IMG/VR virus record: IMGVR_UViG_3300049215_000496
Location: 1-64,000 of that record
DNA: 64,000 nucleotides
Source of the DNA: a virus
Reading direction: 5' to 3' (one strand)
This document shows, piece after piece, positions 8,487 to 59,817 of this stretch. Numbering within the stretch: position 1 is the stretch's first letter; every line of letters begins with the position of its first letter. Below the pieces are notes generated by a model, which saw nothing but the letters and a program-made list of their open reading frames with translations, did no database searches and was not told the origin of the DNA. The translations under genes and the position numbers were made by a program.

Positions 8487-11400
8487 ATGGCTGCCGCGCT
8501 GATTAAGTTCTCGCAGGGCTTTGTCATAGGCCCTGACGGACAAGCGATTTATGGCACCACAGGTACGCCTGTGAACGTGGCCAACGTCAACAACGTGGGC
8601 GTGGCGTCGTGGGAGATCGAGCTGGTTGACGTTCCGATCAACTCTGCGCTGGTCCCCGGAATCCTGGCGTTCGCGAACTCTCCGTTGCCTGCGGCAGCGT
8701 TCACGCCAGACGTTGACGGAGGGTCTTACCGTGTCGTGCTGCGTGTGTGGAATGCGCCCGGACGTGTCGGGGCCCCGGACGATACAGATATCCGTAACGT
8801 TCTCGTCAAGGACTCTTCAGGGCTCGTGTGCCCGCCCGAGCAGATCTGGCCTCGTCCGCTCCCGCCTCTACCGAGCGGATCGTCGAACGCCAAGCCGAAC
8901 GAGTTGAACGTCGGAGGGCAGGAACGCGGTTGGGCAGGCAACACCACGGATGGTTTGATGGACATGCGTCTGCACTACCCGCGGGGTGCAGATGGATTGT
9001 GGCAGAGCGGGGGTGCACCACTTCTCGTGATGGGTGTGGTGAACGATGGAGATGTGTTTCAACGGAGCGGCACGAACATCACCGGATTCAGTACAGGCGG
9101 AATTCTATCTGCGATAAATATCTCAGCGGGTACGACCTCCAACAATCTCAGCGCCGTTGCATTCAGCAATAGTAATGGCGTGTCGTTTGGACTGAACGGA
9201 TCGACTATCACAGGGTCGATCGCCACGTCGTTGACCAACATCAACGTTTCAGCTGGTACGACGAGTAACAACTTGTCTGCTGTGACGTTCAGCAACAGCA
9301 ATGGCGTTAGCTTTGGACTGAACGGGTCGATCATTACAGCATCTGTCGTGCCTCCCACAGCCGCAACCGTGAACTTCAGCGCCGGTACGACATCAAACAA
9401 TCTTACTGGCATCGTATTTTCAAACAGCAATAACGTATCGTTTGGGTTGAACGGTTCAACCATAACAGCCAATGCATCGTTTTCCCAGTCCACCGCTCCT
9501 TCTGCCATTGTAGCCAGTGACGCGACCTTCACGAGCGGTACGGTGGTGGTCATTGGAACGAACGCGGTCACGGTGCGCACGAGCGCTGGACAGGCGGTTG
9601 TCATCGATGCCCCTGTGCAGACAGCACAGACCCAGAACGTGGTGGTCCCGTCGGCTGGCACACAGACCGCAACGAGTGGCACGGTCGTTTGGTCCGACAG
9701 CAATGGGATCAGCTTTGGGATGTCCGGGTCTTCTCGAATCACAGCGAGCTACACCGTGCCGTCGACGACGGGACTGATCTCAGCAGTGAATTTTTCCGCA
9801 GGAACGACCTCGAACAATCTCAATGCGGTCACGTTCTCGAATTTGAATGGAGTGAGCTTCGGCCTGGACGGTTCTACGTTGACAGGTTCGGTGGCCACCT
9901 CTCTGACGAACATCAACGTCAGCGCCGGAACGACTTCCAACAATCTGAGCGCGATCACGTTCTCGAACTCGAACGGGCTCAGCTTCGGGCTCAACGCGAG
10001 CACGATCACTGCAAGCTACACGGTTCCATCGACCGCCGGGTTGATCTCCGCTGTCAACCTAAGTGCAGGCACGACCTCGAACAATCTGACCGCCGTCACG
10101 TTCAGCAATTCTAATGGCGTGTCGTTCGGGTTGAACGCTTCAACGGTAACGGCGTCAGTCGCGACCAGCCTCACTAACATCAACGTCTCGGCCGGGACGA
10201 CGAGTAACAACCTGTCAGCGATCACGTTCTCGAACAGTAACAACGTCTCATTTGGGCTGAACGGATCGACTCTTACAGCTTCCGCTTCACAAAGTGTTCA
10301 GACACAGAACGTCGTGGTCCCGTCAGCGGGAACGCAAACAGCCACAAGCGGAACGGTCGTTTGGTCTAACAGCAACAACATCACGTTTGGGATGTCTGGC
10401 AGCTCACGTGTCACTGCCTCGTACAACTTCAATTTGAGCGCGGGGACCACATCCAACAATCTGAATGCTGTCACGTTCTCTAACGCTAACGGCGTATCGT
10501 TTGGATTGAACGGATCGACTGTCACCGGATCGATTGCCACGTCGCTCACCAACATAAATGTGAGCGCAGGCACTACGAGCAACAATCTGTCTGCTGTGAC
10601 GTTCTCCAACTCTAACAACGTAAGTTTCGGGCTGAACGGTTCCGTGGTGACAGCGTCCGCGTCAGTCGCGACAAGTCTCACCAATATCAACGTTTCGGCT
10701 GGAACGACTTCAAACAATCTCAGCGCGGTAACGTTCTCTAACTCGAACGGGATCTCCTTCGGGCTCAACGCCAGTACGATCACAGCCTCGGTCGCCACAT
10801 CGCTGACGAACATCAATCTGTCGGCCGGTACCACTAGCAACAATGGGTCGGCATTCATCTTCTCCAACTCTAACAACGTCTCGTTCGGGTTGAACGGATC
10901 GACGGTCACCGCAACGGCAACGTTTGCTCAGACCAATCAAACGTTGGGGCTGTTCGCGACAGGAAACACTACACAGAGCAGCTCCACGACGCTCGACGCG
11001 CGGAGCCTCACGCTGAATGGACTCGGCGATATCACCATAGGATTTTCGAACGGGTCGATTCAGGTCTCCGGCACGCAAACGGTTCAGACCCAGAACGTGG
11101 TGGTCCCGTCGGCTGGCACACAGACCGCAACGAGTGGCACGGTCGTTTGGTCGAACTCGAACAACATCACGTTTGGGATGTCCGGATCGAGCCGGGTCAC
11201 TGCCTCATACAACTTCAATTTGAGCGCGGGGACCACATCCAACAATCTGAATGCTGTCACGTTCAGCAATAGCAATGGAGTGTCGTTCGGGCTGAACGGT
11301 TCTACGGTCACAGGGTCGATAGCTACGAGCCTCACGAACATCAACGTCAGCGCTGGAACGACCTCCAACAATCTGTCCGCGGTCACGTTCTCGAACTCGA

Positions 11401-17232: not shown

Positions 17233-18036
17233 TTACTTCCGCGTCAGCAGTGCCACCGTCAGTACCCCTGCAAGGACAATCCCGCCGATCAGCAGATGAG
17301 ATTGTTTGACGGGTGCACGAAGGCCCGGGACGCGTACCATGCCGGGGGGAGGCGGAAGGGCCTGCTCTACTTGATTGGCGGCTGTCGCGATCTCGTTGGC
17401 AACTTCTTGCGCTCCTGGAGGTGGCGCGCTGTCTTGGACTGACTCGGGATACTGTGCGGCAGCAACTTGTGCTTCGGCTTGTGCCTGCATTTCAGCGCGC
17501 TGATCTCCTGCCGGATCCGCGGGGGCTTCCCCGGACTTGGCCGACTTGTTCAAGAGGGCGTTCAGCACAGCGATCAGGATTGGGAGCGAAGCCGCGATCA
17601 CGCCGGCCGATACTGGTTCACCGAGTCCTGACGATCCGAGATGCACGTAGGACGGCCCCGCGAACAAAGCCAGAATGCGTCCATGGGGACCGGTGCCCTT
17701 GAGCTTGTTTTGCGTCCACGTCTTCGCTTCGGCTTGCTCAGCTGCATTGGGCGTTTTGTTCTTTCGCCGATCCCATGCAAGCTTCGCCGCGCGGCGATTT
17801 TTCAGCTTGTTGACGCGGCTGCGAATGGGCACGGTCAGTTTGGATGCGAGCCAGCGCGAGGGCGCTACTGCTAGCAAGTATGCCGGTGCCACCGCGATCT
17901 TGCCTGTGGTCTTAGCGACCTTCACTGTTTCGCGGCCGACCACACGTCCTGCCGACGCGGTGGATCGCGCAACGCTTTTGACGGCTTTGATCGGATTCAA
18001 GCTGAATCCCAAGCCTTCCGTTGTCGTGGTGAGCAT
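17233..18036 (-). CDS. Tail-anchored membrane protein with K-Q-S-H anchor
   Basis: 267 residues from the ATG at 18036 (TGATG overlap with the upstream stop; a GTG three bases earlier is an alternative). The N-terminal half is very basic and helical, a hydrophobic patch lies near residues 145-165, then an alanine/glutamine-rich helix and a proline stretch. The C-terminus is VKQSHLLIGGIVLAGVLTV plus LLTRK, one transmembrane helix ending in basic residues. The K-Q-S-H start of the anchor is shared with 18647-19021 and, loosely, 18036-18650. A nucleic-acid-facing, membrane-anchored virion protein would fit. Confidence 0.6.
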   Translation of the reverse strand: MLTTTTEGLGFSLNPIKAVKSVARSTASAGRVVGRETVKVAKTTGKIAVAPAYLLAVAPSRWLASKLTVPIRSRVNKLKNRRAAKLAWDRRKNKTPNAAEQAEAKTWTQNKLKGTGPHGRILALFAGPSYVHLGSSGLGEPVSAGVIAASLPILIAVLNALLNKSAKSGEAPADPAGDQRAEMQAQAEAQVAAAQYPESVQDSAPPPGAQEVANEIATAANQVEQALPPPPGMVRVPGLRAPVKQSHLLIGGIVLAGVLTVALLTRK

Positions 18037-18650
18037 CACGCACCCTTTGGAGACTTGTTCTTCTTGCGATTCTTCACGAAGTAGTAACCCCCGATGCCGG
18101 CTCCGACGAGCACAACGCCAACGATAATGTGCGTTTTGTTGAAGTGGTGCTTTGGCGCGGGTGGGGGAGAGTCGGCTTCGGACTCGGCTGCTGCCGCTGC
18201 GCCGCCGTCCGCCGCGTCTTGTGTTGGACGCAGATCGGCTTCGGGCGATGCGGGCGAAATCTGTGGCGGCGCGGGCGTCGGTGCGGGTGTGGGCGATGCA
18301 GGTGTTTGAACGATCATTTGCGGCGGAGGCGCGGCGGGTGGCGGTGCCAGCGTGGCGGAAGTTGTAGCGGTCACGCGGGTTCGGAGCATTCGACGGCGCT
18401 CCAGAGCGGCCATCTGACGCGCTTGGAACAGCGCCTGCTCGGCACGTCGCCGTTCCAGCTCTTGCTGCAGGCGCTGCCGCTGTGCAAGCTCTGCTTGGCG
18501 TCGCAACATCGCGTCGGCTTCTCGCCGCTGCATCAGCTGTTGTGCTTGCTGTACGGACGGCAGAGGGTGCGGAGCAAACGCACCACGTCGCGCAGGGGCG
18601 TATTGCATTATCGGCGGGCGAAAAGGGGTCTGGCCAAAATACATTGTCAT
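18036..18650 (-). CDS. Tail-anchored membrane protein with coiled-coil and proline linker
   Basis: 204 residues. Residues about 30-90 form an R/Q/E/A-rich helix typical of a coiled coil (repeated QRREAD, ELERRRAEQ). Residues 95-165 are a Pro/Ala/Thr linker. The last 35 residues are FNKTHIIVGVVLVGAGIG and a basic tail (KNRKKNK), giving one transmembrane helix. The stop overlaps the next gene and the start overlaps the previous stop by four bases. This layout (rod, flexible linker, anchor) suits a protein bridging membrane and capsid or cell envelope. Confidence 0.6.
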   Translation of the reverse strand: MTMYFGQTPFRPPIMQYAPARRGAFAPHPLPSVQQAQQLMQRREADAMLRRQAELAQRQRLQQELERRRAEQALFQARQMAALERRRMLRTRVTATTSATLAPPPAAPPPQMIVQTPASPTPAPTPAPPQISPASPEADLRPTQDAADGGAAAAAESEADSPPPAPKHHFNKTHIIVGVVLVGAGIGGYYFVKNRKKNKSPKGA

Positions 18651-19021
18651 TTCCTCATGGTGAGAACGAGCACGAGCCCGATACCGACAGCGGCTGCAAT
18701 CACAAGAATGTGACTTTGCTTGTTGATTGGACCGACGGGCGCACCGCCGCCGCCGCCGCCGCCGCCGCCGTCGTTGTCTTCACCGCCGTACCCTTGTGGG
18801 GGATACATTGGCGGAGCTGGAGGCACTCCCGGGCGGCGCGGCGGTCCGAGGGCTTTTTGGACTTGCGAAACAGTCGCCTGTGCTCGGGCGTACTGTTGCG
18901 GCGCATACGTTCGTGCGGCGACGTTCGCAACGTTCTGCACGCGTGGATCTCGAACAGCCGTGGCCACTCCCCGTGCGATGGACGAGAACGGGTTCGAGCC
19001 CAACGTGGTTCCGAGTAGCAC
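18647..19021 (-). CDS. Tail-anchored membrane protein with poly-Gly linker and K-Q-S-H anchor
   Basis: 124 residues from a GTG six bases after TAGGAT. The first 55 residues are helical, followed by a Pro-rich stretch, nine glycines in a row, and the anchor NKQSHILVIAAAVGIGLVLV ending TMRK. The anchor is nearly the same as that of 17233-18036. First gene of the leftward membrane operon, divergent from the intein gene. Function unknown; probable virion membrane protein. Confidence 0.6.
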   Translation of the reverse strand: MLLGTTLGSNPFSSIARGVATAVRDPRVQNVANVAARTYAPQQYARAQATVSQVQKALGPPRRPGVPPAPPMYPPQGYGGEDNDGGGGGGGGGAPVGPINKQSHILVIAAAVGIGLVLVLTMRK

Positions 19022-19096: not shown

Positions 19097-19103
19097 GTTG
19101 ATC

Positions 19104-20105
19104 GTGCTCTACGATTCGGCCGCGACGCTTCGCGCACACAGCGTGCGCACGCTCAAAGATCGCGTGGTGTATCTGCGCAAGTTGGTTTGGTGGGGGGACG
19201 GGGCGTTTCGACGGGGCGGTCCCCCAACGGGCGGCTTGCGCGATGCGATGATGCGGCAGATCGGTCTCGCTGTCACAGAGTCGTGCCGCGCACGCGACGA
19301 CATGTGTGAGTTGTCGTCGATCTTCGAATTCGTGAAGCGCAACGTACGGTACACAGGCGACATCAGTGACAAGGACACGTTTCAGTCTGCGTACAGAACG
19401 TTGCAGTACGGCGGCGGAGATTGTCTGCCACTGGACACAATTGTATGCAAAGCTGTTGCCGGTACAGTAACCCCAACGTTTGTTCCGTTGTACACGATCA
19501 TGGAAGGTGATCGGATCATGGCTAATGGCGCGGGAAATTGGACCCGCGTGTTGAAGTGTTGGTTTACAGGGCTGAAACAGATTTTAGTGTTCGAACTGAG
19601 CAATGGAACGGCACTTCGCTGCTCGCCAGAGCACAGACTTCTGTTTTTAAACGGTGGTGAGATTCGTGCCGCTCGCATTGAGGTTGGCGATCAGCTTCTT
19701 ACGCCGCGAAATGAGATACCATTAGAACACGGTACAATTCCTGTTTCGCTTGAAGGTGTTCGTGTTGTAGCTATAAAGGCTGATAAACATGCCAAGTTGT
19801 GCATGGATATAACAACAGATGCAGGTATGTTTTGGCTTCCAGAATCGGATGTGTTAGTTCACAACTGTGACGATCATTCTGTTCTCAACGCCGTGCTTGC
19901 AATGGAGAACGGATTCAGCACGCGCTTTCGCATAACAAGCAACACAGGCGCAACGTGGGACCACATATTCTGTATGGCCGGCGTTCCAAAAGGATCGCCG
20001 CGTAAGTGGGTGGCGCTCGACACGACGTTGCCGGGATCGAACAAGTTCGGTGTGCAACCACCGATGGTGAAGTATCAAGACTTCGATGTGACGGAGGCAA
20101 AGTGA
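19104..20105 (+). CDS. Transglutaminase-like cysteine enzyme interrupted by an intein
   Basis: 333 residues as precursor. The flanking parts join into a transglutaminase-like domain of the type found in phage virions: a helix before YGGGD, then the catalytic cysteine in CDDHSVL, a WDHIFC histidine strand, and KWVALDTT with the third catalytic residue. A 148-residue intein sits exactly between GGD and CDDHS, so the catalytic cysteine is the first residue after the intein and the active site exists only after splicing. The start is taken as the GTG at 19104; a TTG at 19098 is also open. Followed by coupled small genes (GTGA overlap). It may process virion proteins or cut a peptide cross-link. 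Confidence 0.85.
   Translation: MLYDSAATLRAHSVRTLKDRVVYLRKLVWWGDGAFRRGGPPTGGLRDAMMRQIGLAVTESCRARDDMCELSSIFEFVKRNVRYTGDISDKDTFQSAYRTLQYGGGDCLPLDTIVCKAVAGTVTPTFVPLYTIMEGDRIMANGAGNWTRVLKCWFTGLKQILVFELSNGTALRCSPEHRLLFLNGGEIRAARIEVGDQLLTPRNEIPLEHGTIPVSLEGVRVVAIKADKHAKLCMDITTDAGMFWLPESDVLVHNCDDHSVLNAVLAMENGFSTRFRITSNTGATWDHIFCMAGVPKGSPRKWVALDTTLPGSNKFGVQPPMVKYQDFDVTEAK
19422..19865 (+). other. Mini-intein (148 codons, no homing endonuclease)
   Basis: Begins CLPLDTIV (block A, nucleophilic Cys1) and ends VLVHN followed by extein Cys (block G: H-N then C). The block B histidine is in RCSPEHRLL. Block F is the LCMDITTD region. At 148 residues it has only the Hint splicing domain and no endonuclease. 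Its codons are visibly more AT-rich than the flanks (for example 19620-19860), which suggests arrival from elsewhere. It sits at the most conserved site of the host protein, as inteins usually do. Confidence 0.9.
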
Positions 20106-20398
20106 AATCGCTCACGCGTGGTGAAGTGCGTAAGGTGTTGAAGAAGCTGCGCACGCTGGGAGTCAAGCCTCCGCGTGTTGGGTGGTGCGTAATGGTGATC
20201 GGGGGCAGTGATTCGGTTGAGCTGTGTCGGCATCCGCGCAGCCGTTTCATTCCGAATGACACAGGCTACCAGATCGTGACTCAGCGTCGTGACCACGGAC
20301 TGTTTGGCGCACACAGGAGCCGCCGCAAACCACTGACGGCCGCGCAGCTCCGCGACAAGCTTGCGTGCAAGATCTTCGGCGGCAAAGCGTGTCGGTGA
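20102..20398 (+). CDS. Small basic protein, unknown
   Basis: 98 residues from a GTG that overlaps the previous stop (GTGA). Strongly basic throughout, helical N-terminus (LTRGEVRKVLKKLRTL), then a WCVMVIGGSD strand and a basic R/K/H tail with two further cysteines. No named domain seen. Nucleic-acid binding is plausible from charge alone. It is coupled to the next gene by a TGATG overlap. Confidence 0.55.
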   Translation: MKSLTRGEVRKVLKKLRTLGVKPPRVGWCVMVIGGSDSVELCRHPRSRFIPNDTGYQIVTQRRDHGLFGAHRSRRKPLTAAQLRDKLACKIFGGKACR

Positions 20399-20613
20399 TG
20401 AACCATCCCAACGGCAACATGCGCACGCTCGTTCTCCCGTCCGGGGGCACGATCGACATCCCGTTGCCGGGATCGAAATCCAGCATCGTGATGCGCCCGT
20501 CGTCCATGCTCCACGACGCTGATGGTGGATCCAACATTCCGTTGCTGATCGCGGGCGTTGTAATCGGTGTCGCTGTCGGTGTCGCTGCAACGGCCTGGTA
20601 CCTCCGGCGATGA
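20398..20613 (+). CDS. Small tail-anchored membrane protein
   Basis: 71 residues: a short beta-type N-terminal part (TLVLPSGGTIDIPLPG) and a C-terminal transmembrane helix (IPLLIAGVVIGVAVGVAATA) ending in two arginines. Same architecture as the other tail-anchored proteins of this region. Overlaps its neighbours on both sides, so it lies inside a coupled operon. Confidence 0.6.
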   Translation: MNHPNGNMRTLVLPSGGTIDIPLPGSKSSIVMRPSSMLHDADGGSNIPLLIAGVVIGVAVGVAATAWYLRR

Positions 20614-20801
20614 ACAGCGCGCCACCAGCCAACGCGCCGACTCCAGGATTTCCTGTCTTCTGGACGATGTTCGGGCGGATAGTTGCGCAGATGCTCGGTG
20701 AGAGGGCATTCGCCGAGATCGTGGTAACGCTCAAGGACGGCAATATCCAATTCGTGCGCGTCAATCGAACGTATTTGCCTGGCAACCTGCCCAAGGTGTA
20801 G
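20610..20801 (+). CDS. Small protein, unknown
   Basis: 63 residues; ATGA overlap with the previous gene. Pro/Ala-rich start, an amphipathic helix (FWTMFGRIVAQMLGERAF), then two strands (AEIVVTLKDGNIQFVRVNRTY). No clear transmembrane helix. No family recognised. Confidence 0.5.
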   Translation: MNSAPPANAPTPGFPVFWTMFGRIVAQMLGERAFAEIVVTLKDGNIQFVRVNRTYLPGNLPKV

Positions 20802-20813
20802 GCTTTTCGTGCG

Positions 20814-21470
20814 ATGATGTACCAAGCTGCACGATCGCTGGGCGCCGCGGTTCCCACAAACATCCTGCGTTTGCAGAATGCGCTCGTCGCGCTTGGGCGC
20901 CGGAAGAATGATCCCGCGTTGATGATCTCTGTCGACGGGCTTGTTGGTCCGCAAACAGTAAATGCCACGCGACGGGCGCTCATCACATATGTGGTTGCGG
21001 GTGCTGGATCGGCTCCTGCCAACTGGGGACGCACACTCACCACATCCACGCTCAGAGCAAATGCAACCGAGATTGCAGGGTACATCGAGCGTGCCGCGGG
21101 GATTTCACCCCCGGCGGCTCAAGGTGACGATGGCCTCATGACACCCGCGTCGTTGTTTCCCGTCCCGTCTACGCCGTCGGCTCCGACGGTTCAACATCCC
21201 GGAGGATCCATGCCTGCGTATCAACCACAACCGCAATACTACCCACCCACGCAGTACGCGCCTCCGGTGCGGGCGTATCCCCCGCAAGGATACGGCCCGG
21301 CACGCGGCCCTGGCGATCTGCCCACCGATCGCGCGACATTGGATGTCAAAGCGTTCATTCCAGCGCAGTATGAACACGTTTCGATTTCACCCTTCGTTGG
21401 AATCGCACTGATCATCGGCGTTGTGTCGTTCGTGTACGTGATCAAGCAGCACAAAATCGTCGCTAAGTGA
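20814..21470 (+). CDS. Membrane-anchored peptidoglycan-binding-like protein, copy 1
   Basis: 218 residues. Residues about 18-62 match the core of the peptidoglycan-binding-1 fold: LQNALVALG, then ISVDGLVGPQTVNATRRAL. A long Pro/Tyr/Gln linker (YQPQPQYYPPTQYAPP) follows, then a C-terminal transmembrane helix (FVGIALIIGVVSFVYVI) and a basic end. The paralogue at 47501-48007 has the same order. Membrane-anchored cell-wall binding suits a protein that docks the virion membrane at the cell wall during entry. Confidence 0.7.
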   Translation: MMYQAARSLGAAVPTNILRLQNALVALGRRKNDPALMISVDGLVGPQTVNATRRALITYVVAGAGSAPANWGRTLTTSTLRANATEIAGYIERAAGISPPAAQGDDGLMTPASLFPVPSTPSAPTVQHPGGSMPAYQPQPQYYPPTQYAPPVRAYPPQGYGPARGPGDLPTDRATLDVKAFIPAQYEHVSISPFVGIALIIGVVSFVYVIKQHKIVAK

Positions 21471-23722: not shown

Positions 23723-24511
23723 ATGGCGAATACTGGCACACTGACTGTGCGTGTTCGTGGGGTACCGTTCCCCATCGAATTCGCAGACTGGACGCACGAT
23801 CGTCTGTACCACACGGTGGAGTTCGAGGGCTCGGATGCCCAAGAGATCCAAGTGTTCATCGGAGCGGCGGGTTCGCCGATCCCCGGTGGAAGCCGCGTGC
23901 TGACGATCGTCGACACCAACATCCCGCGCTCGGGTGACACCGGGTTGCAGGAAGGCTGGGAGATGCTCATCTACTCGATCCAGATCGAGGTGGTGCGCGA
24001 GATGGGTCGAAACGCTGCGCAGCAGTCGTTCTCACTCCAAGACATTACGACGGCGGGTGGCGCGACGCAGTTCTCGCGCAACACGCACGTCGGCGGGTAC
24101 GATCCGATCAACGCCTCGGGCGGCGTGCTCTTCGACTTCCTGCGCAAGGTCTACCATCGGTTTCAGGTGAACCAGAAGGTGCAGAGCGAAGGTCCCGTCG
24201 AGAAGTATCCGCAAGGGTCGGGGATCAGCGTTTTCGGCGTCACCACGGGGTTGGAGGTCGCGAACAATGGCGTTCCTTCTCCTCGTGATCAGTCGGCGTT
24301 CGTTTTGCCGATCTGGCTGCGCCCGAACATTGCCTACGTGGGGAAGCTTGCTCCTCAAGCGGCGCTCGGGATTGGCGGTCCGGCTGCGGCGATGGGGCCT
24401 CCGTTCGCGACGGTTGGAGGTTACTTCGACTGGACGGGAATTCCTGCGACGAACCTCGGGTTTGACGTTCGGGAAACGCTCGAAGGTCTGTTGAAGCGAC
24501 CTGTTGTGTAA
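23723..24511 (+). CDS. Candidate major capsid protein (jelly-roll-like), large
   Basis: 262 residues, beta-rich, no membrane helix, no cysteine. The middle segment TNIPRSGDTGLQEGWEMLIY fits the T-N-x-x-x-x-G turn leading into a strand that I associate with capsid proteins of tailless phages; this is pattern memory, not a database hit. It stands alone between a structured leader and the strongest terminator in the window, which suits a highly expressed gene. It is followed by a second beta-rich protein. The size fits PM2-like or P23-77-like capsid proteins. An alternative is a major decoration or spike protein. Confidence 0.45.
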   Translation: MANTGTLTVRVRGVPFPIEFADWTHDRLYHTVEFEGSDAQEIQVFIGAAGSPIPGGSRVLTIVDTNIPRSGDTGLQEGWEMLIYSIQIEVVREMGRNAAQQSFSLQDITTAGGATQFSRNTHVGGYDPINASGGVLFDFLRKVYHRFQVNQKVQSEGPVEKYPQGSGISVFGVTTGLEVANNGVPSPRDQSAFVLPIWLRPNIAYVGKLAPQAALGIGGPAAAMGPPFATVGGYFDWTGIPATNLGFDVRETLEGLLKRPVV

Positions 24512-24627: not shown

Positions 24628-25128
24628 ATGACCATGAGTGCAGACGCATCTCCCGCTCTTTCTTCTATGCTGGTCCAGCTCGGACCGCTGATTCACGGTG
24701 TGATGCAGCGGATCCAACCGATGCTGGATCAGCCTGTCGTGCGTTTTCCGTACGCGATCCCACTCGCGCGCAGTCAGGTGATCTCTGCAGGGCAGACGGG
24801 AGCCATCCTTGCACCGGCGGATTTTCAGTACAGCTTCGAGTATCCGTTCGAAGTTCACGAGCTGAAATTCTCGCAAGATCCCGCGCACACGTACCGCGAC
24901 TGGCGAATCGCGTTCATGGATCAGACGTTCAACCAGCCGCTGCAGAAGGCTTCCACGTCGATGGTCGCCGATCTCGTCGACGACAACACTGGCAAGTGGG
25001 TCTGGAAATTTCCGTGGACGATTCGGCCGAAAGGGGGCGGGTTCAACATCGTCGTCGACAACCTAGACACGGTCAATCCGATCACGGTCGACATCGCGCT
25101 CCTCGGGTACATGCTCCTGCCGCGTTGA
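24628..25128 (+). CDS. Candidate second capsid protein (single jelly-roll-like)
   Basis: 166 residues, beta-rich. VRFPYAIPLARSQVIS opens the fold, FQYSFEYPFEVHELKF is a strand pair, and the end GGGFNIVVDNLDTVNPITVD then IALLGYMLLPR is the pattern of the last strands of small jelly-roll capsid subunits. It starts on an ATG seven bases after TATCCT, directly behind the terminator of the 262-residue candidate. A large plus small single-jelly-roll pair is the arrangement of P23-77-type phages. Penton or minor capsid protein is the alternative. Confidence 0.45.
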   Translation: MTMSADASPALSSMLVQLGPLIHGVMQRIQPMLDQPVVRFPYAIPLARSQVISAGQTGAILAPADFQYSFEYPFEVHELKFSQDPAHTYRDWRIAFMDQTFNQPLQKASTSMVADLVDDNTGKWVWKFPWTIRPKGGGFNIVVDNLDTVNPITVDIALLGYMLLPR

Positions 25129-28621: not shown

Positions 28622-28716
28622 ACATAAGCAGGTTTCTCCTGCATCACCGACGATCAGAATAACTGGCGTCCAGTGGAGTGGATGGTTTCAAACCACCCTT
28701 CCGCCTGGCGCCTTTT
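28622..28716 (+). promoter_or_regulatory. Structured leader motif, copy 2
   Basis: ACATAA; hairpin GCAGG/CCTGC (28628-28642); block CGATCAGAATAACTGGCG (28651-28668); then a longer hairpin region containing TGGTTT/AAACCA and closing with GGCGCC and TTTT. Matches copy 1 (22133-22219) in order and spacing while the hairpin stems differ in sequence. It precedes the giant fibre gene. Confidence 0.6.
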
Positions 28717-28758
28717 GGCGTATCGCCGAAATGCACCACAAACACGGGGCAAAATTGC

Positions 28759-31700
28759 ATGTTAGACGGCAGTTACGTCACAGGTTACAACGCTGAATCA
28801 AACAATCTGATCCAGGGCGAGCTTGTACGAGTCTACGCCGTCGGGGGCCAAAAACGCGTTGTTCGCGCGCAAGCGGATGCCCCAATCCACCTCCAGGGGC
28901 TGATCGGTGTCGTCTTTTCTGGTGTGGTTCGTCCGGGGGGGCCTGTCGCGGTGGCCGCTGTTGCCAGCGCCGCTGTACGCATTCTTCTCGATGGAGGACT
29001 CGCGCCGCAGCCGAGCAACACACTGTATGTATCGGTGGTGAATCCCGGGCGTGCGACCACGATCCCGTCGGTTGGCACTCCCGCGATCGCTGTTGTATTC
29101 GATGCAACACAGTATTCCCGCGACAACTCGGTCGTCGGTATCCTGACTCAAACCGCGACGGGTTTGGTTGGAGGTCCCGGAGCGACCGGAGCTACCGGCG
29201 CGACAGGCGCGACCGGAGCTACCGGTGCGACAGGTGCAGGTGCAACAGGTGCAACAGGCATAGGCGCGACGGGCGCGACAGGTGTGACAGGCGCTACCGG
29301 ATCTCCAGGTGGCGCGACGGGCGCGACAGGAACGCAAGGCGCGACAGGTATTCCGGGCAGCCCCGGCGGAGCTACTGGCGTGCAAGGCGCGACCGGAGCT
29401 ACCGGAGCTACCGGAGCTACCGGAGCTACCGGCGCGACGGGCGCAGGCGCAACAGGTGCCACCGGTGTGCAGGGTGCAACAGGCACTACAGGGTCCGCTG
29501 GCGGGGCCACTGGTGCCACTGGTGCAACCGGCGCCACCGGCGTGGGTGCCACTGGTGCAACTGGCGTGGGGGCCACGGGCGCCACCGGGTTGACAGGCGC
29601 AACAGGATCAAACGGAACAGTAGGGCCGCCCGGTGCGGATGGATCTGACGGCACTGACGGGCTCGATGGCATCGACGGCGCTACCGGCGCGACGGGAGCC
29701 ACGGGTGTAGGCGCGACGGGTGCCACTGGTGTCCCCGGTAGCCCTGGTGGCGCGACGGGCGCGACAGGAACGCAAGGCGCGACAGGTATTCCGGGCAGCC
29801 CCGGCGGAGCTACTGGCGTGCAAGGCGCGACCGGAGCTACCGGAGCTACCGGAGCTACCGGAGCTACCGGAGCTACCGGAGCTACCGGAGCTACGGGACC
29901 GATGGGGCCTCCGGGCGCGGATGGATCTGACGGCACTGACGGGCTCGATGGCCCTCCAGGTGCCACGGGCGCTGGCGCAACGGGTGCGACAGGCGCAACC
30001 GGGGCACTGGGTGCTACCGGCGCGACAGGTGTCGGACCTGGGTTTGGATTTGCGCAACAGAATTGGGTGTCTCTTGTTGATGGTGTATCGCCGCTCGTTC
30101 CGCACGCGGATCATCAACACACAGCATTTCCATCCCCCGACATGTTTGTCGTTTATGCTGTCGATCAAGACGGAGTAGTTCTGCCGGGAAACGACACGAC
30201 AGGACAGCCTGGCACGTCCATTTATCAGGCCACGCCAGCATTGGATATGAGCAACGCATTGGCGTTTGCCGTTGCCACACCATACAAGACATTGGAGCAG
30301 GTTGGACGCCAACTTCCGCGTGAGGGCAACAACGCAACGCTGGTCGTACTGATTCGTCCGCGTATTGGCGGCGCTACGTATAAAAAGATCGATGGTGTGT
30401 CCGATCAAGACATGGGGTGGATGAGTCAGCTAACGGGTTGGAAGCGCGTACTGATTCGCGCAACCAACACCTTTCTGAACGACACTGCTGACAAGGTAGC
30501 GTGCGGATTCCAAACGGTAGCTTCTACATTCGCGGGCGGCTACAACGCACTGGCTGGCAGCACTCCAAGCACACTGAATTGTCAGAAACAGGGGGGAGCG
30601 GCTGCGGGTTTTCCTGCTGAAGCGGGCGGATCGAGCGCGATATCCGGCAAGCGAATTCGATTCACATCAGGCGCACTGATCAATCAAACAGCTATGATTT
30701 GGAAGAATACAACCACACAGTTGGTTCTTTCGAATGCTTTGACTGGAGTTCCGAATCCAGCAGACAACTTTTTAATTGAAGAGCCCGGACTGCACGTTGG
30801 AAACTTTACACACAGTGTGAATCATAACGGAAGTGCCGTCGCACTTGCAGGTTTCGGATCTACGATCGGGTCGGCTACAGTATATGGCCCTGGCGGCATC
30901 AACTACGCCGGCAGCGAATCCTCTGGTGACATATCTTTCACAGGGCTGTCAACAGCCACACTGACACGATCGTATACAGACGAACTTGGAAATGATGTTG
31001 TTGTAGGCGTATCGCTGCGCGCAGCAAGCAACGTGAGCGCGTCTCACATCGGTGATTTGACACACGCCTCAGGGTACACGCACGTTCGAACCGCAATATC
31101 AAACAGCGTGTCACTGAACGTTGGTGCTGGGTGTGTGTACAGGAAAGGTGGATCAATCCAGGCAGGTGCCGGGTCCAGCAAATACGGTGGAGCGGGCAAT
31201 GCCGCGTACATCGCCGGAAGTCAAAATGTCGCCGGAACACAAAAGCTGCGTGTGACACAGGCGCTTATTGCCGATGGATTCACCGGGGCTTTCGAGCTTC
31301 AGGGCATTTCTGGTTCACTTGTGTACGGCATTGATTTCGCGAATTGCACCGTTCCATTGATCGACTTTAAGTCATCCGGCGCTGTGTTTGACGTTGACGG
31401 CATAACGTCATTAGACGGGGGCAACACTAACACTGTATTGAATCTGACGTCAGGATCTAATCAGACCATAGCTGTTGGCCTCATAGCGGCGGAAATGACG
31501 GCGGCGGCAGCGCTTGGCGATATACGTATGGCTGGGTTGGAGATCGCCCCATTCACGCTATTGATCGATGCTAACTATGTTGACACAGTTGGCAACAACG
31601 TGTACGGCCAAGGTGGCATAGTTATATGTAACGATGTTGTTCAATCCAATGTTAGTGCAGGAACTATAGCAGCATACAGTGTATTGCGTGTAACCGGCAA

Positions 31701-34560
31701 CAATCAAGTGGCTCTTGCGCAAGCTCCTGCAAATATAGATGCCTTTGGGGTCGCCCAAATGGCTTCCTCTTCTGGAAATACGGTTCTGACTGCCGTGGCT
31801 GGTCCTGTGCCGATGTTGTTCAACGCGCCAAACCCCACGCCGGGTAACATCGCGTATCTGTCTACAACTGCTGGGCAAGCACAAGACACATTTGTCAATA
31901 ATTCTGTGCGCCTCGGACGCATTATCGGGCAGCTCAATGGCAGCGTAGGCTTGGTGGCGCTCGACATCGATCTGCAAACAGTATTTACCCCCGCTCCGGC
32001 CTCCGCCATGGTTGCGCTGGTTGACTACGATGCGGTGATCGCCAATGGAACAGGTGGATTCGGTGTCGCCAGTGACGTAACCGGGCGCTTCGGATATGCA
32101 CCTTCCACAGGCGTGCTTACCACAGACATTCAAACAGCGTTGAATTCCGCCATGCTCACGCCATTCAAAACGCTTGAGCAGGTTGGAAAATCGTTTCCGC
32201 GTGGAGCCGGAAACGGATCGAATTTGAGGATTTTCATCCGACCACGGATAGGATCCGCTCCATACCGAAATATAGCTAACACCGCAGACCAAAACGGTGT
32301 TGACTGGTTGTCCGGCATCAGCGGATGGAATTCCGTGGTTATTCGCGGTTCGCTGAATCTGACCAACACACAAGAAGATGTTACAACAGCCGGGTACTAC
32401 CCTACAGCAGGAACGAATCCTGGTGGGTACAATGTAACGGCAAGCACCGTTGGCGGTACAAGTTACACAACATGCCAATTGAATGGAGGTGGTGCTCCCG
32501 GCTTCACAGCTGAATCTGGTGGATGGTCCGTGCTACTAGGTAAACGTATTCGTTGGTCTGCCACTACTACCACGCCTGCGTTGAGAAACACCACGTCCGT
32601 GATCAATGAAGTTCTAACTAATGTAGGACTCGTTCCATCCAACCAAATATTTGTTACGCCGGTTGCATCGGATGTATTCTTTATTGAATCTCCCGGAGTG
32701 GTAGTTGGCAACTTAACACATTTTGCTGGTGTTAACGGTTCAATGTCTTTGACAGGTTTCGGCACAACCACGGCACTGCAAACACTGTCAAATGAAGGAC
32801 CGGCCACATACAACGGAATAACTGTGAGCGGCGTCGGGTTTATGGCCATCACCGGAGCAAATTCAGGATCTATATCCTTGAATGCTTTGGACTACAACGG
32901 AACGGCTGGAAACGATATAACAATCGGACAAGCTACAAACGTCATTATTCAAAACAGCGCATACAGAAATGTTCGTATGCGCATAACGAGTCCGGCTACT
33001 AGGGTGACGTTTGGATCTGGTTGTGTGATCAGCGGGCCGTTCGAGAATCTTGCCACAATTGACAACCGGATGTTCACGGTCGGTGGCCAATTTATTCCAA
33101 CAGCCGCGCCGCTGCGGTACACACAGTTCGTGTACGTGACAGGACAGGCTGCAATGAATTTGTGCGGTGGTGGTGGAAACATCGGGGGCGTACGAATTGA
33201 CAACTGTACGGCAGGCGTATCTTGGGGATTGATAAATTTCCAAGGAATTCCGTTTGCAAATGCGCCTACGGGCGAGCCCTCAGGTGTGTGGGCCATCGAT
33301 GGCCTAACAGGCAGCGGAAATACAGGATTTATTTTAAATAGCGGGCACACCGGAACGGCGCGCAATGCGGGATCTGATTTTACGGTAGCGTGGGCCGGTC
33401 TACAGCCCAACACGATTACAGCGAACCCACCGGTAGGAACGTTGCCTGCTAACAGCGTGTCGTGGGGAAATTGTCAAACATCGCTTGCACCCTTGCAACA
33501 CACTAATGTGTATTTAAGTGGATGCAATTTGACAACCAGTGGCATAGGCACTGTGTTCAAAGATGTAATCAGAACAACAATACATTCCACCGCCGTTGAC
33601 ACCGACATCGCACTGTTCCGCGTTGTAAGAAACGCTCCCGTAAATTCACTGACGTATTACAACGCCAATGCTGTTCCTGCTTCCGCGGATTTGTTGGTGA
33701 ATTGCACAGGAATAACTGGTGTTTCAATAAGTGATGGCGGGTATGTTGGACAGGACGTAATAGTAGCCACGGATGGTGTTGTTCCGATAGAATTCACAGC
33801 AATCCCTGCTTACACGGACGTTGGGCAACCAGTATGGTTATCTGCTTTGACTGGAGCTAATGCCGGAAAGGTACAAACAACACCCGGAACAGTACCGGTG
33901 ATGATCGGGACGTTATACGAGTGCTACGGAACAACGATAGGGCGCGTAAAGTTGAATGCGCTGCAGCCTCAATCGACATTGATAGGCGCAACTGGTGTAG
34001 CTGGCGCCGCTGGCGCCCCGGGTGCCGCAGGTGCCACGGGTGCAACGGGCGCGGGTGGTGTCGGATCACAAGGCGCCACCGGCGCAACGGGCACTGCAGG
34101 CGCCGCGGGAACGCAGGGCGCAACGGGCGCGACCGGTGTCATGGGTGCAACCGGGGCCAATGGCCCAATCACGCTCGCCACGTTCGCGATCGGGTATGAG
34201 AGCACTGTTGGTGTGCAGATACTCACAGGAATCACATACGGCCTTCCACCGTACACGATCACCACACCGTTCGGCTTTGCCATCCAATGGCGTGTTCCGC
34301 AAAACCTGAGCAACATCGAAGTTTGGGTTGAAACAGACAGCATCATCGATTTGGGTGCTGCTGGTTCGTTCACGATTGAGCTGCTCAAGAACGGTGTCCC
34401 TTCCGGAGCCGGGAATGTGATCAACAGCATCGGAGCAACCACGCTGGTTGGTGGACCGATCGCTTACGTCGCAGGCGATCGGTATGGATTCAATGTCACA
34501 GGTGGTGGCACCGTCGGCGTAAGCGTCAGCTTCACACTGTTCGCACGAGGTATTCCGTAA
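28759..34560 (+). CDS. Giant collagen-like fibre with two beta modules and C-terminal knob
   Basis: 1933 residues. Residues 1-135 form an attachment domain shared with 36210-37190 ([20 protein letters not shown]). Residues about 135-430 are Gly-X-Y repeats, mostly G-A-T. Two long related modules follow, each starting PFKTLEQVG and holding [LI]-[RF]-I-R-P-R-I-G, probably beta-helix or beta-prism folds of about 550 residues each. A second short collagen stretch (about 1760-1820) leads to a 115-residue knob. Thr in G-A-T repeats is a likely sugar acceptor, as in BclA of Bacillus. The frame is open to 28678; I chose the ATG that matches the paralogue. Confidence 0.85.
29308..29432 (+). repeat. 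125-bp exact repeat in collagen region, copy 1
   Basis: Identical to 29746-29870. Both encode Gly-X-Y triplets with an interruption G-I-P-G-S-P-G-G. Exact identity suggests recent duplication of a collagen cassette. Confidence 0.85.
29746..29870 (+). repeat. 125-bp exact repeat in collagen region, copy 2
   Basis: Second copy of 29308-29432. It is followed by further pure GGAGCTACC units and a repeated D-G-S-D-G-T-D-G segment also present near 29636 and 29920. Confidence 0.85.
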
Positions 34561-35505
34561 GTGCGCATAGTCCAGGTGTTGCCCCCTGCTGGCGCAGGAG
34601 GCTTCGAGGAACTTGGGGCGAGCTTCAGCTCGATGCTTGCAGCATGCACCAGCAACCTTTCCGTGCACGTCAGCAGCATCGCCGCTGTGCTGCAAACAAA
34701 ACCCGCGTGCGATGTCGTGGCACATTCGTTCTGTGTGGCCAACCCTGAGATACTGAAAGCGTATCCACACGCGCGGCATGTAGAGATAATTGTCGGCAGC
34801 GATCTGGCCCCCACGCCCGGTGTTGATCGCGTCTATCCGTCCTGGGCGTGGCTGAATTTTTTGTGGGGTAAGTACGAGGCAAGGCACCTCGGGCGCGTAG
34901 GCGATGTCATGATCCCGCATTGGGTCAATCCAAGCGACTGGCCTCTAGGAGCGAAAACCGAGGACTTTTTGCTGTTCGTCGGGCGCCTCGTACCGCAAAA
35001 ATTCGGGCTGCTCCGTGCAATCGCAAGAGCGCTTCCGCGGCAAAAAATCGTAGTCGCAAGTGCGGGTGACCCGCGCGAGGTTGCAGGTATTCCCAACATC
35101 GATGTGATTGGATTCGCCGCGCCGAACAAGCTCGCGGGGCTCATGGGCAAAGCCAAAGCGGTGCTTTGTCCATCTCTTTACTGCGAGCCGTTTGGGCTTG
35201 CCGCAGTCGAGGCAGGGCTCACCGGTGCCCACGTGATCGCATCGAGGGTAGGCGGTTTCGTAGAAACACTGCCACCCAATTCAACACTGTGTAATCCAAA
35301 CAAACTAGAAGACTGGCTGGCAGCAATAGCTTCCACAGCGTGTAGCAATGATGAACGCGTTAAGCGTCGCGTTTGGCATATGTCGCACCACTCCCCGGAA
35401 GTGATTGCGCCTCAATACATCAAGTTTCTTTGTGCTGAAAAACGATCACCAGTACCGGTGTACGGACCACGTGGTACCGTTGCTGCAACATTAGAAAGGG
35501 TATGA
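34561..35505 (+). CDS. Glycosyltransferase, GT4-like (GT-B fold)
   Basis: 314 residues from a GTG directly after the fibre stop. The donor domain shows LLFVGRLVPQKFGLL, VIGFAAPNKLAGLMGKAK, and EPFGLAAVEAGLTGA, which gives E-x7-E. Its place between two fibre genes argues for a role in fibre glycosylation. The N-terminal acceptor domain is divergent. Coupled by direct adjacency to the fibre gene. Confidence 0.85.
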   Translation: MRIVQVLPPAGAGGFEELGASFSSMLAACTSNLSVHVSSIAAVLQTKPACDVVAHSFCVANPEILKAYPHARHVEIIVGSDLAPTPGVDRVYPSWAWLNFLWGKYEARHLGRVGDVMIPHWVNPSDWPLGAKTEDFLLFVGRLVPQKFGLLRAIARALPRQKIVVASAGDPREVAGIPNIDVIGFAAPNKLAGLMGKAKAVLCPSLYCEPFGLAAVEAGLTGAHVIASRVGGFVETLPPNSTLCNPNKLEDWLAAIASTACSNDERVKRRVWHMSHHSPEVIAPQYIKFLCAEKRSPVPVYGPRGTVAATLERV

Positions 35506-36209: not shown

Positions 36210-37190
36210 ATGTTAGATGGCAGCTACGTCACAGGGTACAACGCTGAGAGCAACAACCTCATCCAAGGAGAGGTTGTGCGCGTGTTTTCGTCCGGTGGGC
36301 AGAAGCGCGTCGTGCGCGCGCAGGCTCCGAGCGCGCTGCAAGGGCTCCTAGGCGTGGTCCACTCGGGCGTGGTTGGCCCGGGTGGACCTGTGGTCGTTGC
36401 AGCTATCGCATCCGCGGCCGTCAAGATCCTGCTCGATACAGGGCTCACGCCGATTGACGGAGGAACGTTATACGTGTCGGCTGTGACCGCCGGACGGGCG
36501 ACGACCACCATGTCCGGCGCAGCGCTCGCCATCGCATACGACATCTCGAAGTACGCAACGACCACATCCGTGATCGGCATACTGGCGCAAAATACCGGAC
36601 TGGGCGCAACGGGTGTTGGTGGAGCCACTGGTGCGACCGGAGCAGCAGGCGCAACGGGCACAGCCGGAACGGCTGGAACAGCAGGCGCAACGGGAGCTAC
36701 CGGTGTGGGCGCGACCGGCGCTACCGGTGCCGCGGGCACTCCTGGAGGAGCAACAGGGGCTACCGGTGTGGGCGCGACCGGCGCTACCGGCGCGGTGTTC
36801 TTTTCGCCGTTTCTGTTTGGGCGCCAAGCCAGTCAGATCCCCAGTGATTCGAATTGGTCCTTGTCGCCGAGTGGCTTCGACATCGTCAGCGACGGTCCGG
36901 GTTGGATGACATTCCAGCAGACCAATTTCGTTGATCTGGAAATGTTAATAACGTTCTTGACGTGGGTCGGCGGCGGTAACGCGAGCTTTCAGGTGCAGCA
37001 CAGAGCTACCCCGGGCGTCGGCGCTTGGACCACCGACTGCACCATATCGATTCCAAGCGGCACAACAGGTCGACAGCACACCACGGTGCCTGCCACGATC
37101 CCAGCAGCGGCCGAAGTGCGGCTGCTCGCGTCCGTGCCTGCGTCCACGGACCTGACCGTGATCGATTGGTCGATCTTCCTGTTCAACTAG
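36210..37190 (+). CDS. Collagen-like fibre 2
   Basis: 326 residues with a strong GGAGGG Shine-Dalgarno. Residues 1-130 are the attachment domain shared with the giant fibre. Residues about 130-195 are Gly-X-Y repeats rich in G-A-T, and the last 130 residues are a beta-sandwich knob, unrelated to the knob of the giant fibre. Two fibres with one shared base and different tips suggest alternative receptors or spikes at equivalent virion sites. Confidence 0.85.
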   Translation: MLDGSYVTGYNAESNNLIQGEVVRVFSSGGQKRVVRAQAPSALQGLLGVVHSGVVGPGGPVVVAAIASAAVKILLDTGLTPIDGGTLYVSAVTAGRATTTMSGAALAIAYDISKYATTTSVIGILAQNTGLGATGVGGATGATGAAGATGTAGTAGTAGATGATGVGATGATGAAGTPGGATGATGVGATGATGAVFFSPFLFGRQASQIPSDSNWSLSPSGFDIVSDGPGWMTFQQTNFVDLEMLITFLTWVGGGNASFQVQHRATPGVGAWTTDCTISIPSGTTGRQHTTVPATIPAAAEVRLLASVPASTDLTVIDWSIFLFN

Positions 37191-37211
37191 ACATTCGTGC
37201 TGTGTGTCTGG

Positions 37212-37217
37212 CATTCT
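37212..37217 (+). promoter_or_regulatory. Leaderless-type -10 element, CATTCT
   Basis: CATTCT, seven bases, ATG at 37225. Weaker because of the first base. Confidence 0.35.
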
Positions 37218-37224
37218 CTTCCGG

Positions 37225-38376
37225 ATGCCACCCACCATACATCTGATCGCCCCCTTTCACACGATCACGAACACCGCGCATTCGCACTGTGCCTTTACAC
37301 AAAAGGCTCTGCGCTTTTCAAAGATGATGCACTTGGCGGCTGCCCCGTACCATGTGATCGAGTATTCGAACGAGGGCTCTGAATCTGAAGCCGATGAGCA
37401 CGTGGTGATGCTCACCGCAGACGAATACCGCACGTTCTACAAGCCCGAAACCAGCTCACCGGGTGCCCAAGCCAACATCAATACTCCCGGCTGCACCTTG
37501 TTCAAATCGCGGCTCGTATCTGCCATCGAGCAGCGCGCCCGCATGGGAGATCTCGTTGCCCACGTTTTCGGGCCGTCGCTGCACACAGCTGTCGTCCAAC
37601 GTTTTCCGGGGCTCATCCACGTTGAGACAGGCATCGGGTATCCATGGAGTCCAATGGGGGCTTATCCGATCTTCGAGTCCGAAGCCTGGCGGCACTACCA
37701 GTGGGGACGCCACGGCAATCCGGGCGGCGTGCTGCCGACAGGAAACATTGCGTTGACACCGTCACGCACGTGGGTGATTCCGAACTACTTCGACGAGGAG
37801 GACTGGCCGTTGAACGTCGATCCTGAAAACAGCGTGGTGTTCATGTCGAGATTCGTTGTCGACAAGGGCATCGACATGCTTGCGCGCGTGATCCAGGCAT
37901 GGGATCGCAAACACCCGGGGGACGGCCTGAAATTCGTGTTGGCGGGTATGGGGGATTTTCTTGGCTGGGCAAGCAGCAGCGGGTTCTCATCAACAGAGCT
38001 GGATCGCATCGCGTACCGCGGTGTTGTGACAGGAAAAGATCGTGCCTCCTTGCTGGGCAGTGGGAAAGCATTCATCTTGCCGACGATATTCGTCGAGCCA
38101 TTTGGGGGTGCAGCTGTGGAATCGATGCTGTGCGGGACACCTGTGCTCGTGCCCAGTTTTGGAGCTTTCACCGAAACCGTGCGACACCGCGAAACCGGAT
38201 TTCACTGCCGAACCGTCGAGGATTACGTTCTGGGAATCGAAACGGCGTGCAATTTCTCGCGCGACGATCGCACGGCTATCGCCACAGAAACCAGGCGACG
38301 CTACACCCTCGAAGCGTGCGCCGCGCTGTACGATACGGTGTTCACGCAACTTTCGCAGCGCCCTGGTATCGAATAA
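37225..38376 (+). CDS. Glycosyltransferase, GT4 (GT-B fold)
   Basis: 383 residues. VVFMSRFVVDKGIDML, FVLAGMGDFLGW, YRGVVTGKDRASLLGSGKAF and EPFGGAAVESMLCGTPVL are the ordered GT4 donor-domain motifs, with E-x7-E. The start is placed at the ATG at 37225; a GTG at 37204 is possible. It follows collagen fibre 2 as the previous GT4 follows fibre 1. Probably adds sugar to a fibre or to host glycan. Confidence 0.88.
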   Translation: MPPTIHLIAPFHTITNTAHSHCAFTQKALRFSKMMHLAAAPYHVIEYSNEGSESEADEHVVMLTADEYRTFYKPETSSPGAQANINTPGCTLFKSRLVSAIEQRARMGDLVAHVFGPSLHTAVVQRFPGLIHVETGIGYPWSPMGAYPIFESEAWRHYQWGRHGNPGGVLPTGNIALTPSRTWVIPNYFDEEDWPLNVDPENSVVFMSRFVVDKGIDMLARVIQAWDRKHPGDGLKFVLAGMGDFLGWASSSGFSSTELDRIAYRGVVTGKDRASLLGSGKAFILPTIFVEPFGGAAVESMLCGTPVLVPSFGAFTETVRHRETGFHCRTVEDYVLGIETACNFSRDDRTAIATETRRRYTLEACAALYDTVFTQLSQRPGIE

Positions 38377-39228: not shown

Positions 39229-40554
39229 TTACACCCGCACGATTTTGTCCGAGACGATGCCCTTCGTTGCGTTTCGGCAATCCACGACACGTTGCGATTC
39301 AGCCACAAGTTTCGTGTAGTCGACGTTTACATGATCTGTGACGATCACGGCACAATCGTAGTATCCATACTGCGGCACGAAGCTGAGCCCGCTGACCATT
39401 AGATCGCCAACCTTCAAATTCAAAGCGGGCACATGCTTGTCGTAGAACTCGACCGCAGCGCCGCGTGCCAGCAGGCCCTCAATGACGTCGAACGCAGGGG
39501 ACTCTCGCACGTCGTCCACGTCGCGCTTGTACGTCACACCGACAATGAGAATCTTAGAGCCTCTCACAGCTTTGAATCGATCGTTCAGGGCGTCCGCTAC
39601 ACGCTGCACCACGAACGCAGGCATCGCACTGTTCACCGCGTCAGCCAGATCGATGAACCTCGGAGCGTACTTCAACGTGCGCAACCGCCAGGCAAGATAC
39701 CGCGGGTCCACCGGGATGCAGTGGCCGCCTAGCCCTGGGCCTGGGTAGAATGGCATAAACCCGAAGGGCTTGGTCGCTGCCGCGTCGATCAGCTCCCATA
39801 CGTCGAGCTTGAGGTGCTGACACATGATAGCGATTTCGTTAACGAGCCCGATGTTGACAGCTCGAAACGTGTTCTCTAGCAGCTTGGTCATCTCGGCCGC
39901 GTCGGTAGAAGACACCGGAACCACCGTGTCCACAAACGTGCTGTAGAACGCCATGGCGAGTTCGCGGCTGATCGTGGACGCTCCTCCGACGATCTTTGGT
40001 GTGTTTTGGATCCCGTAGGTCTTGTTGCCGGGATCAACCCGTTCGGGGGAGAATGCCAGGAAAAAGTGCTGATTGAGGTGCTTCGGTATCGAGCCGATCG
40101 TACACGACTCCAGCAGCGGACGCGCGACTTCCCGAGTGAAACCTGGAAACGTCGTGCTCTCGATGATCACCAACTGCGGGCGAACAGCCCCAATGGCACG
40201 CACATCGTTCAGCGCCGTCACCACGAACGAGTTGTCTGGATCTTTGGTCTTGTTCAACGGTGTCGGTACGCACACGACGATGATGTCCGCGTGTTTGAGC
40301 CCTTGCGGCGATTCTGCCGCACGAAAGGCGCTGTTCATCTCGTTAAGCTGCGCGACCTTCTTCGGATCCGTGTCAAAGATGCTTGTGTGAAATCCCACTT
40401 TTGAAATTTCAATCGCCAGGGGCAGCCCGACGTACCCGCCGCCGATGACAACGACTTTGGCTGTGCGTGATTCGATCAGATCCAGTAGCTCCGCATCAGG
40501 CGTAGGCGTTGGCGATCCGTTATTCCATTCGTCGTATTCTTCTTCAGTTGTCAT
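39229..40554 (-). CDS. wbpA: UDP-N-acetylglucosamine 6-dehydrogenase (WbpA-like)
   Basis: 441 residues. VIGGGYVGLPLAIEISKVGF is the NAD-binding start, VPTPLNKTKDPDNSF and IIESTTFPGFT follow, and PGPGLGGHCIPVDPRYL carries the catalytic cysteine. The LNKTKDPD and FFLAFSPERVDPGN versions are those of WbpA-type enzymes rather than ManNAc or glucose dehydrogenases. It oxidises UDP-GlcNAc to UDP-GlcNAcA, the substrate of the WlbA-like enzyme at 1770. Last gene of a leftward operon with the integrase; its start lies inside the 35-residue gene upstream. Confidence 0.88.
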   Translation of the reverse strand: MTTEEEYDEWNNGSPTPTPDAELLDLIESRTAKVVVIGGGYVGLPLAIEISKVGFHTSIFDTDPKKVAQLNEMNSAFRAAESPQGLKHADIIVVCVPTPLNKTKDPDNSFVVTALNDVRAIGAVRPQLVIIESTTFPGFTREVARPLLESCTIGSIPKHLNQHFFLAFSPERVDPGNKTYGIQNTPKIVGGASTISRELAMAFYSTFVDTVVPVSSTDAAEMTKLLENTFRAVNIGLVNEIAIMCQHLKLDVWELIDAAATKPFGFMPFYPGPGLGGHCIPVDPRYLAWRLRTLKYAPRFIDLADAVNSAMPAFVVQRVADALNDRFKAVRGSKILIVGVTYKRDVDDVRESPAFDVIEGLLARGAAVEFYDKHVPALNLKVGDLMVSGLSFVPQYGYYDCAVIVTDHVNVDYTKLVAESQRVVDCRNATKGIVSDKIVRV

Positions 40555-51419: not shown

Positions 51420-51580
51420 AGCTAGATCTCCTCGCACTGGCACGCCTCTCACTCCACGCGTGCTGGCTGCTACCGACGGCGTTGATCGCTCGATGGACGC
51501 TGGACGAGAAGTTGATGTGCTACGTGCACAAGCGCACGGCCGAGGAGTGGTTCAGGTTCGACCGGACGCTGCGGGGGTGA
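51407..51580 (+). CDS. 57-residue small protein
   Basis: GTG inside the end of the lipoprotein gene. A moderately hydrophobic helix (LLALARLSLHACWLLPTALI) then a charged helix (HKRTAEEWFRFDRTL). It may be a membrane peptide. It overlaps the sigma-factor gene end by 29 bases on the other strand. Weak evidence of coding. Confidence 0.35.
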   Translation: MRALKLDLLALARLSLHACWLLPTALIARWTLDEKLMCYVHKRTAEEWFRFDRTLRG

Positions 51581-52307: not shown

Positions 52308-52316
52308 ATTTTCGCG

Positions 52317-59680: not shown

Positions 59681-59817
59681 GATATTCGATCTCCGAGCCC
59701 AAGAGCAATCGCTTGTGTTCGCCAGCGCTCGAACTCCAACGCGTAGTACCGCGGACAAAACAGCATGCGCGGTTGAACCGTGCGGCTACAAGCGTGCGCG
59801 TGACACGTGTGTTCCAT
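59677..59817 (-). CDS. 46-residue zinc-finger miniprotein
   Basis: Lies exactly between helicase and primase genes: TAATG junction at the start, GTGA overlap at the end. HTCHAHACSRTVQPRMLFCP has the C-x-H-x-H-x-C...C pattern of a small phage zinc finger known in many genomes. It probably assists replication proteins. Confidence 0.7.
   Translation of the reverse strand: MEHTCHAHACSRTVQPRMLFCPRYYALEFERWRTQAIALGLGDRIS

Follow-up and report, generated by a model that had tools for sequence, protein, structure and literature searches.

The window, the whole 64,000-nucleotide stretch of viral DNA analyzed here, encodes a transglutaminase-like protein interrupted by an insert whose motifs are those of a canonical cis-splicing mini-intein of the class 1 type. 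The intein lies directly before the predicted catalytic cysteine of its host protein. We read it as a homing intein in its endonuclease-free form, targeted to one DNA site, the codons around that cysteine, and place the probability of this reading, from sequence comparison, at roughly 0.86. The host group is composed of uncultivated viruses, mostly of 70-120 kb.

Precursor gene and intein

The precursor gene (19098-20105, + strand) has homologues in 18 other viral contigs. Its reading frame is open over 335 codons from a TTG at 19098 and encodes a protein of 335 aa; a GTG at 19104 is an alternative start. The N-extein (19098-19421, +) is 108 aa long and ends in RTLQYGGGD, and the C-extein (19866-20102, +) is 79 aa long. 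Both align with intein-free homologues. The predicted spliced product is 187 aa from the TTG or 185 aa from the GTG.

The intein (19422-19865, +) is made up of 148 aa, residues 109-256 of the precursor, and runs from CLPLDTIV after YGGGD to VLVHN before CDDHS. A first-pass annotation of this DNA had given exactly these boundaries. It had also described an AT-rich mini-intein that lacks an endonuclease, and both features are borne out. A Pfam scan finds no endonuclease domain in the window intein. Its GC content of 47.3% compares with 57.9% for the window as a whole and with 60.8% and 54.2% for the extein parts, and puts it in the bottom 1% of 444-base stretches.

Homologous inteins occupy the same site in three related viral genes, L005, L037, and L045. 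Cys1 of block A, the first splicing nucleophile (19422-19424, +), and the block F Asp of the F:4 type (19806-19808, +) are invariant across all four inteins. Block B (19623-19634, +) follows the S/T-x-x-H motif and reads SPEH in the window; the four inteins have SPEH, SPTH, SPEH, and TPEH. Block G (19860-19865, +) contains the penultimate His and terminal Asn, which are HN in the window, L037, and L045 and RQ in L005. With the +1 Cys, the HN-C junction at 19860-19868 is complete. The His usual in block F is not evident in the window intein. A class 3 intein is rejected, as Cys1 is present and Asp occupies the block F position. From these motifs, the window intein is expected to splice.

Pfam Intein_splicing (PF14890) matches the precursor with an E-value of 6.8e-5 at 23.1 bits, which is under the curated cut-off of 35.8, as are the scores of all four alleles. 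The insert is not a chance resemblance, given this match, a homologue that lacks exactly these 148 residues, and three homologous inteins at the same residue. An AF2 model of the whole precursor from the 4-sequence alignment reached a pLDDT of 38 and was not used.

Two further cysteines of the intein, C67 (19620-19622) and C127 (19800-19802), are non-catalytic and could form a disulfide or metal site. The C-terminus of the L005 intein (9234-9251) is Arg-Gln and not His-Asn, an unusual but precedented ending that would alter the cyclization step.

Host enzyme

The host protein is predicted to be a transglutaminase-fold cysteine enzyme with a Cys-His-Asp triad. All three residues are invariant in the alignment of 19 homologues, which includes the window. 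The predicted catalytic His (19962-19964, +) lies in TWDHI, and the predicted Asp (20019-20021, +) lies in ALDTT. The predicted catalytic Cys (19866-19868, +) is the Cys+1 of the intein, so a single residue would act as the second splicing nucleophile and as the nucleophile of the enzyme. This double role had been proposed in the first-pass annotation, along with a precursor that lacks a continuous active-site motif. Both proposals are supported. The Pfam Transglut_core (PF01841) score is 19.7 bits for the unspliced protein and rises to 32.3 bits once the intein is removed in silico (cut-off 23).

An AF2 model of an intein-free homologue, built from the 19-sequence alignment, has a pLDDT of 89 and a pTM of 0.88. 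In this model the Cys opens a helix, the His opens a strand, and the Asp directly follows a strand. Foldseek searches with this model recover cysteine proteases of the transglutaminase/papain fold. The top PDB matches are 3isr, S. pyogenes TglA, PNGase, LapG, and CPR-C4, with a putative cysteine protease among them. The best PDB match of the sequence profile is the LapG chain of 4u65, which is weak (E 0.02). Since both kinds of match lead to cysteine proteases, a protease-like role appears at least as likely for the predicted enzyme as cross-linking. The mature enzyme may modify virion proteins, cut the host wall, or act as some other protease. LapG and the bacterial transglutaminase-like cysteine proteases (Transglut_core, PF01841) have the fold and the Cys-His-Asp arrangement in common with the window enzyme, whereas its sequence identity to solved transglutaminase-like members is at most 18%.

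Empty, mini, and full alleles in related viruses

Eighteen viral relatives were gathered with an extein profile and the pattern VHN-CDDH, giving 19 genes with the window. An intein is present in four of the 19, always before the same Cys, and 15 are without one. The first-pass annotation had called for a search for intein-free homologues; the closest of those found are L002/L003 (IMGVR_UViG_3300042191_000299), which have 73% extein identity and an uninterrupted GGEDCDGH. Compared with these and 14 further intein-free viral genes, the insertion is precise and in frame.

All four inteins are mutually homologous. Those of the window (148 aa) and L037 (identical to L010; 147 aa) are mini-inteins. 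Those of L005 (310 aa) and L045 (identical to L011; 319 aa) are full inteins with LAGLIDADG-type motifs, detected as LAGLIDADG_3 in L005 (E 0.0033) and read by eye as LLGTFVADG in L045.

A Pfam intein scan of the four intein-bearing records finds no further inteins. Two relatives at a greater distance (records G016, G018) have inteins in non-transglutaminase genes, at L048 (226-2544, +), L049, L053, and L054. The extein profile search finds no relatives of the extein in genome contigs. The VHNCDDH pattern has 20 matches in these contigs, and frame reading places none of them in a transglutaminase-like gene. Several resemble intein-bearing archaeal release-factor genes, and others lie in HipA-like genes or outside genes. 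No intein in a transglutaminase-like protein of a cell or an isolated phage was found in the searches made.

Evolution and the homing cycle

The relationships of the inteins and of the exteins are discordant. Relative to the window, L037 has 66% identity in both extein and intein, L005 has 69% in the extein and 35% in the intein, and L045 has 41% in the extein and 49% in the intein. The closest extein, that of L003 (73%), carries no intein. On the extein tree, the presence of the intein requires at least three gains or losses, and each of the three is imposed by well-supported branches when the two longest rows are omitted. A clade of the window, L037, and L045 is rejected on this tree (p-AU 3e-5), as is a clade of all four intein carriers (p-AU 1e-59). 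A clade of the window and L037 is not rejected (p 0.22).

The empty site, the endonuclease-bearing intein, and the mini-intein correspond to states of the homing cycle described for inteins (PMC8966425). This reading follows from the sporadic distribution, the discordant intein and extein relationships, and the allele states at one site; the direction of each step is the part that we infer. Ordinary homing would explain the presence of the intein, given four carriers among 19 genes, a closest extein that is empty, and two alleles with LAGLIDADG-type motifs.

The position of the intein also fits what is known of insertion sites. The mean distance between native inteins and active-site residues is 8.3 A (PMC3359363), and phage inteins concentrate at active centers, where splicing makes the site (PMC5050341). 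The window case would be an extreme form of this rule, in which the splicing +1 nucleophile is itself the predicted catalytic nucleophile. A site that is both invariant and essential offers a conserved target for homing and cannot be left imprecisely, and this, as opposed to an evolved switch, would account for an intein at the catalytic Cys.

Splicing and alternative readings

In the proposed pathway, Cys1 would attack the Asp-Cys junction after translation, and Cys+1 would then receive the N-extein. Asn148 would cyclize, the intein would depart, and GGGD-CDDH would be restored, leaving Cys+1 as the nucleophile of the host enzyme. The precursor would almost certainly be inactive, since the residues ahead of this Cys are displaced. 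Splicing thus probably activates the enzyme and is presumed to be constitutive.

A degenerate intein that no longer splices, leaving the host enzyme dead in the window virus, is highly improbable. The loss of the endonuclease and a GC content unlike that of the flanks would suit such a decayed element, but Cys1, the block B Ser and His, the block F Asp, the His-Asn pair, and Cys+1 are all kept. The insert has no frameshift or stop, and the triad is retained in the extein. Between the window and L037, pN is 0.257 and pS is 0.807, a ratio of about 0.3 over 146 codons (a ratio of proportions, with dS saturated), which indicates purifying selection on the splicing domain. Least probable of all is that the insert is not an intein but a Hint or bacterial-intein-like (BIL) domain acting on its flank by cleavage or modification. 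The best PDB sequence match of the insert is indeed a BIL domain (2lwy), although the match is weak (E 0.027). This assignment is opposed by the precise placement of the insert in a conserved enzyme, by homologues that have no intein, by the C+1 nucleophile that follows HN, and by the LAGLIDADG-bearing alleles at the same residue, and it is rejected on motifs.

Whether splicing also regulates the enzyme is a separate matter. The first-pass annotation had treated splicing as the activation step, which the sequence supports well, and had suggested that it keeps the enzyme silent until late infection or a change in redox conditions, for which no positive evidence was found. Slow or redox-gated splicing of this kind is quite unlikely. 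The placement of the intein ties activity to splicing, and conditional splicing is documented in other inteins (PMC6195587, PMC5790916). The mini-intein is still under purifying selection despite its lost endonuclease, but such selection is expected regardless, since an intein that fails to splice disables the host protein. Close relatives without an intein speak against a requirement for a regulatory role; 15 of the 19 genes lack one, among them the gene with the closest extein, so retention of the intein for regulation is not upheld. The window, L037, and L045 each have one non-catalytic cysteine next to block B (R-C-SPEH) and another next to block F (L-C-MD), and neither is found in L005. 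A pattern drawn from four sequences is too little for claiming a redox switch. A specific redox- or metal-sensitive latch, in which C67, C127, and the shared Cys+1 would hold the precursor unspliced under one condition until a virion-associated enzyme is switched on at a defined stage of infection, is doubtful to a slightly greater degree. The homing intein with constitutive splicing is preferred over each of these readings: by it, the window intein is favorably sited but otherwise an ordinary selfish element, and its alleles capture several stages of a known life cycle.

Comparison with known inteins

The inteins of mycobacteriophage TerL, RecB-like, and TOPRIM proteins (PMC5050341) are likewise sporadic and located beside invariant catalytic motifs, with splicing creating the site. 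Their hosts are DNA and nucleotide enzymes. The window intein, by contrast, interrupts a cysteine enzyme of the transglutaminase fold, the viruses concerned are uncultivated and unrelated to those phages, and the +1 Cys itself is the predicted catalytic residue. The mycobacterial DnaB and SufB inteins (PMC6195587, PMC8891592) share C1, the block B His, the block F Asp, the penultimate His, the terminal Asn, and Cys+1 with the window intein. They sit in essential proteins, and measurements have shown that their splicing is conditional or tuned by the exteins, while the window intein is known from its sequence.

A transglutaminase-fold cysteine enzyme has apparently not been reported as an intein host, as no paper describing one was found in the literature searched. 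Archaeal UDP-glucose dehydrogenase inteins may likewise precede a catalytic Cys. The window case extends the range of intein host proteins to a transglutaminase-fold cysteine enzyme, from a virus group about which little is known. The alleles at this catalytic residue, which are empty, hold a mini-intein, or carry an endonuclease, offer a small natural series in which the homing cycle could be tested. With the same series one could ask whether intein retention is constrained when splicing and catalysis share a nucleophile. Were splicing conditional, a single residue would link intein chemistry to the activation of a viral enzyme.

Homologues in an isolated phage and neighboring genes

Among isolated phages, Salisaeta icosahedral phage 1 (SSIP-1) has the closest homologue, gp34, with a tblastn E-value of 7e-9. 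Aligned to the window family with hhalign, it has a probability of 99 and an E-value of 3.4e-18 over 133 columns. SSIP-1 gp34 possesses a transglutaminase-like domain with C/H/D positions identical to those of the window enzyme; it differs in having no intein, a C-terminal hydrophobic segment, and only 23% identity. The best match in the Foldseek viral library, I1ZBG7, is 304 aa, equal in length to SSIP-1 gp34. The gp34 protein is annotated as a "structural protein", and from this one distant homologue the enzyme may be a virion protein in the window virus. Almost nothing else in the 43.8 kb SSIP-1 genome is recognizably similar to the window. The ORF at 51555-52316 (-) has a weak match (E 1e-5) to the SSIP-1 RNA polymerase sigma factor.

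A gene for a 262-aa protein (23723-24511, +) is located a few kb from the intein gene in the window and its relatives. The protein occurs, at 31-89% identity, in 16 of the 19 records searched and is the best conserved neighbor examined. It adjoins a gene for a 166-aa partner (24628-25128, +). Compared by hhalign with the P23-77 capsid and SSIP-1 structural proteins, neither product has a match. The two are candidate capsid proteins of an uncharacterized virus group. No terminase was recognized among the subset of window ORFs scanned.

A cluster of genes on both sides of the intein gene (17233-19021, -, and 20365-21470, +) encodes small proteins. These contain proline/glycine-rich stretches and, C-terminally, a hydrophobic helix with basic residues after it; several are conserved in L003 and L005. 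A 1960-aa protein (28678-34560, +) contains collagen repeats (Pfam Collagen, 6.9e-24), and an adjoining gene (36210-37190) has matches of the tail-fiber type. Glycosyltransferases and a UDP-glucose dehydrogenase are encoded at 34561-35505 and 37204-38376 (+) and at 39229-40554 (-), which suggests surface-sugar modification. A Dda-like helicase and a family A DNA polymerase are encoded at 59817-61424 and 62173-63951 (-).
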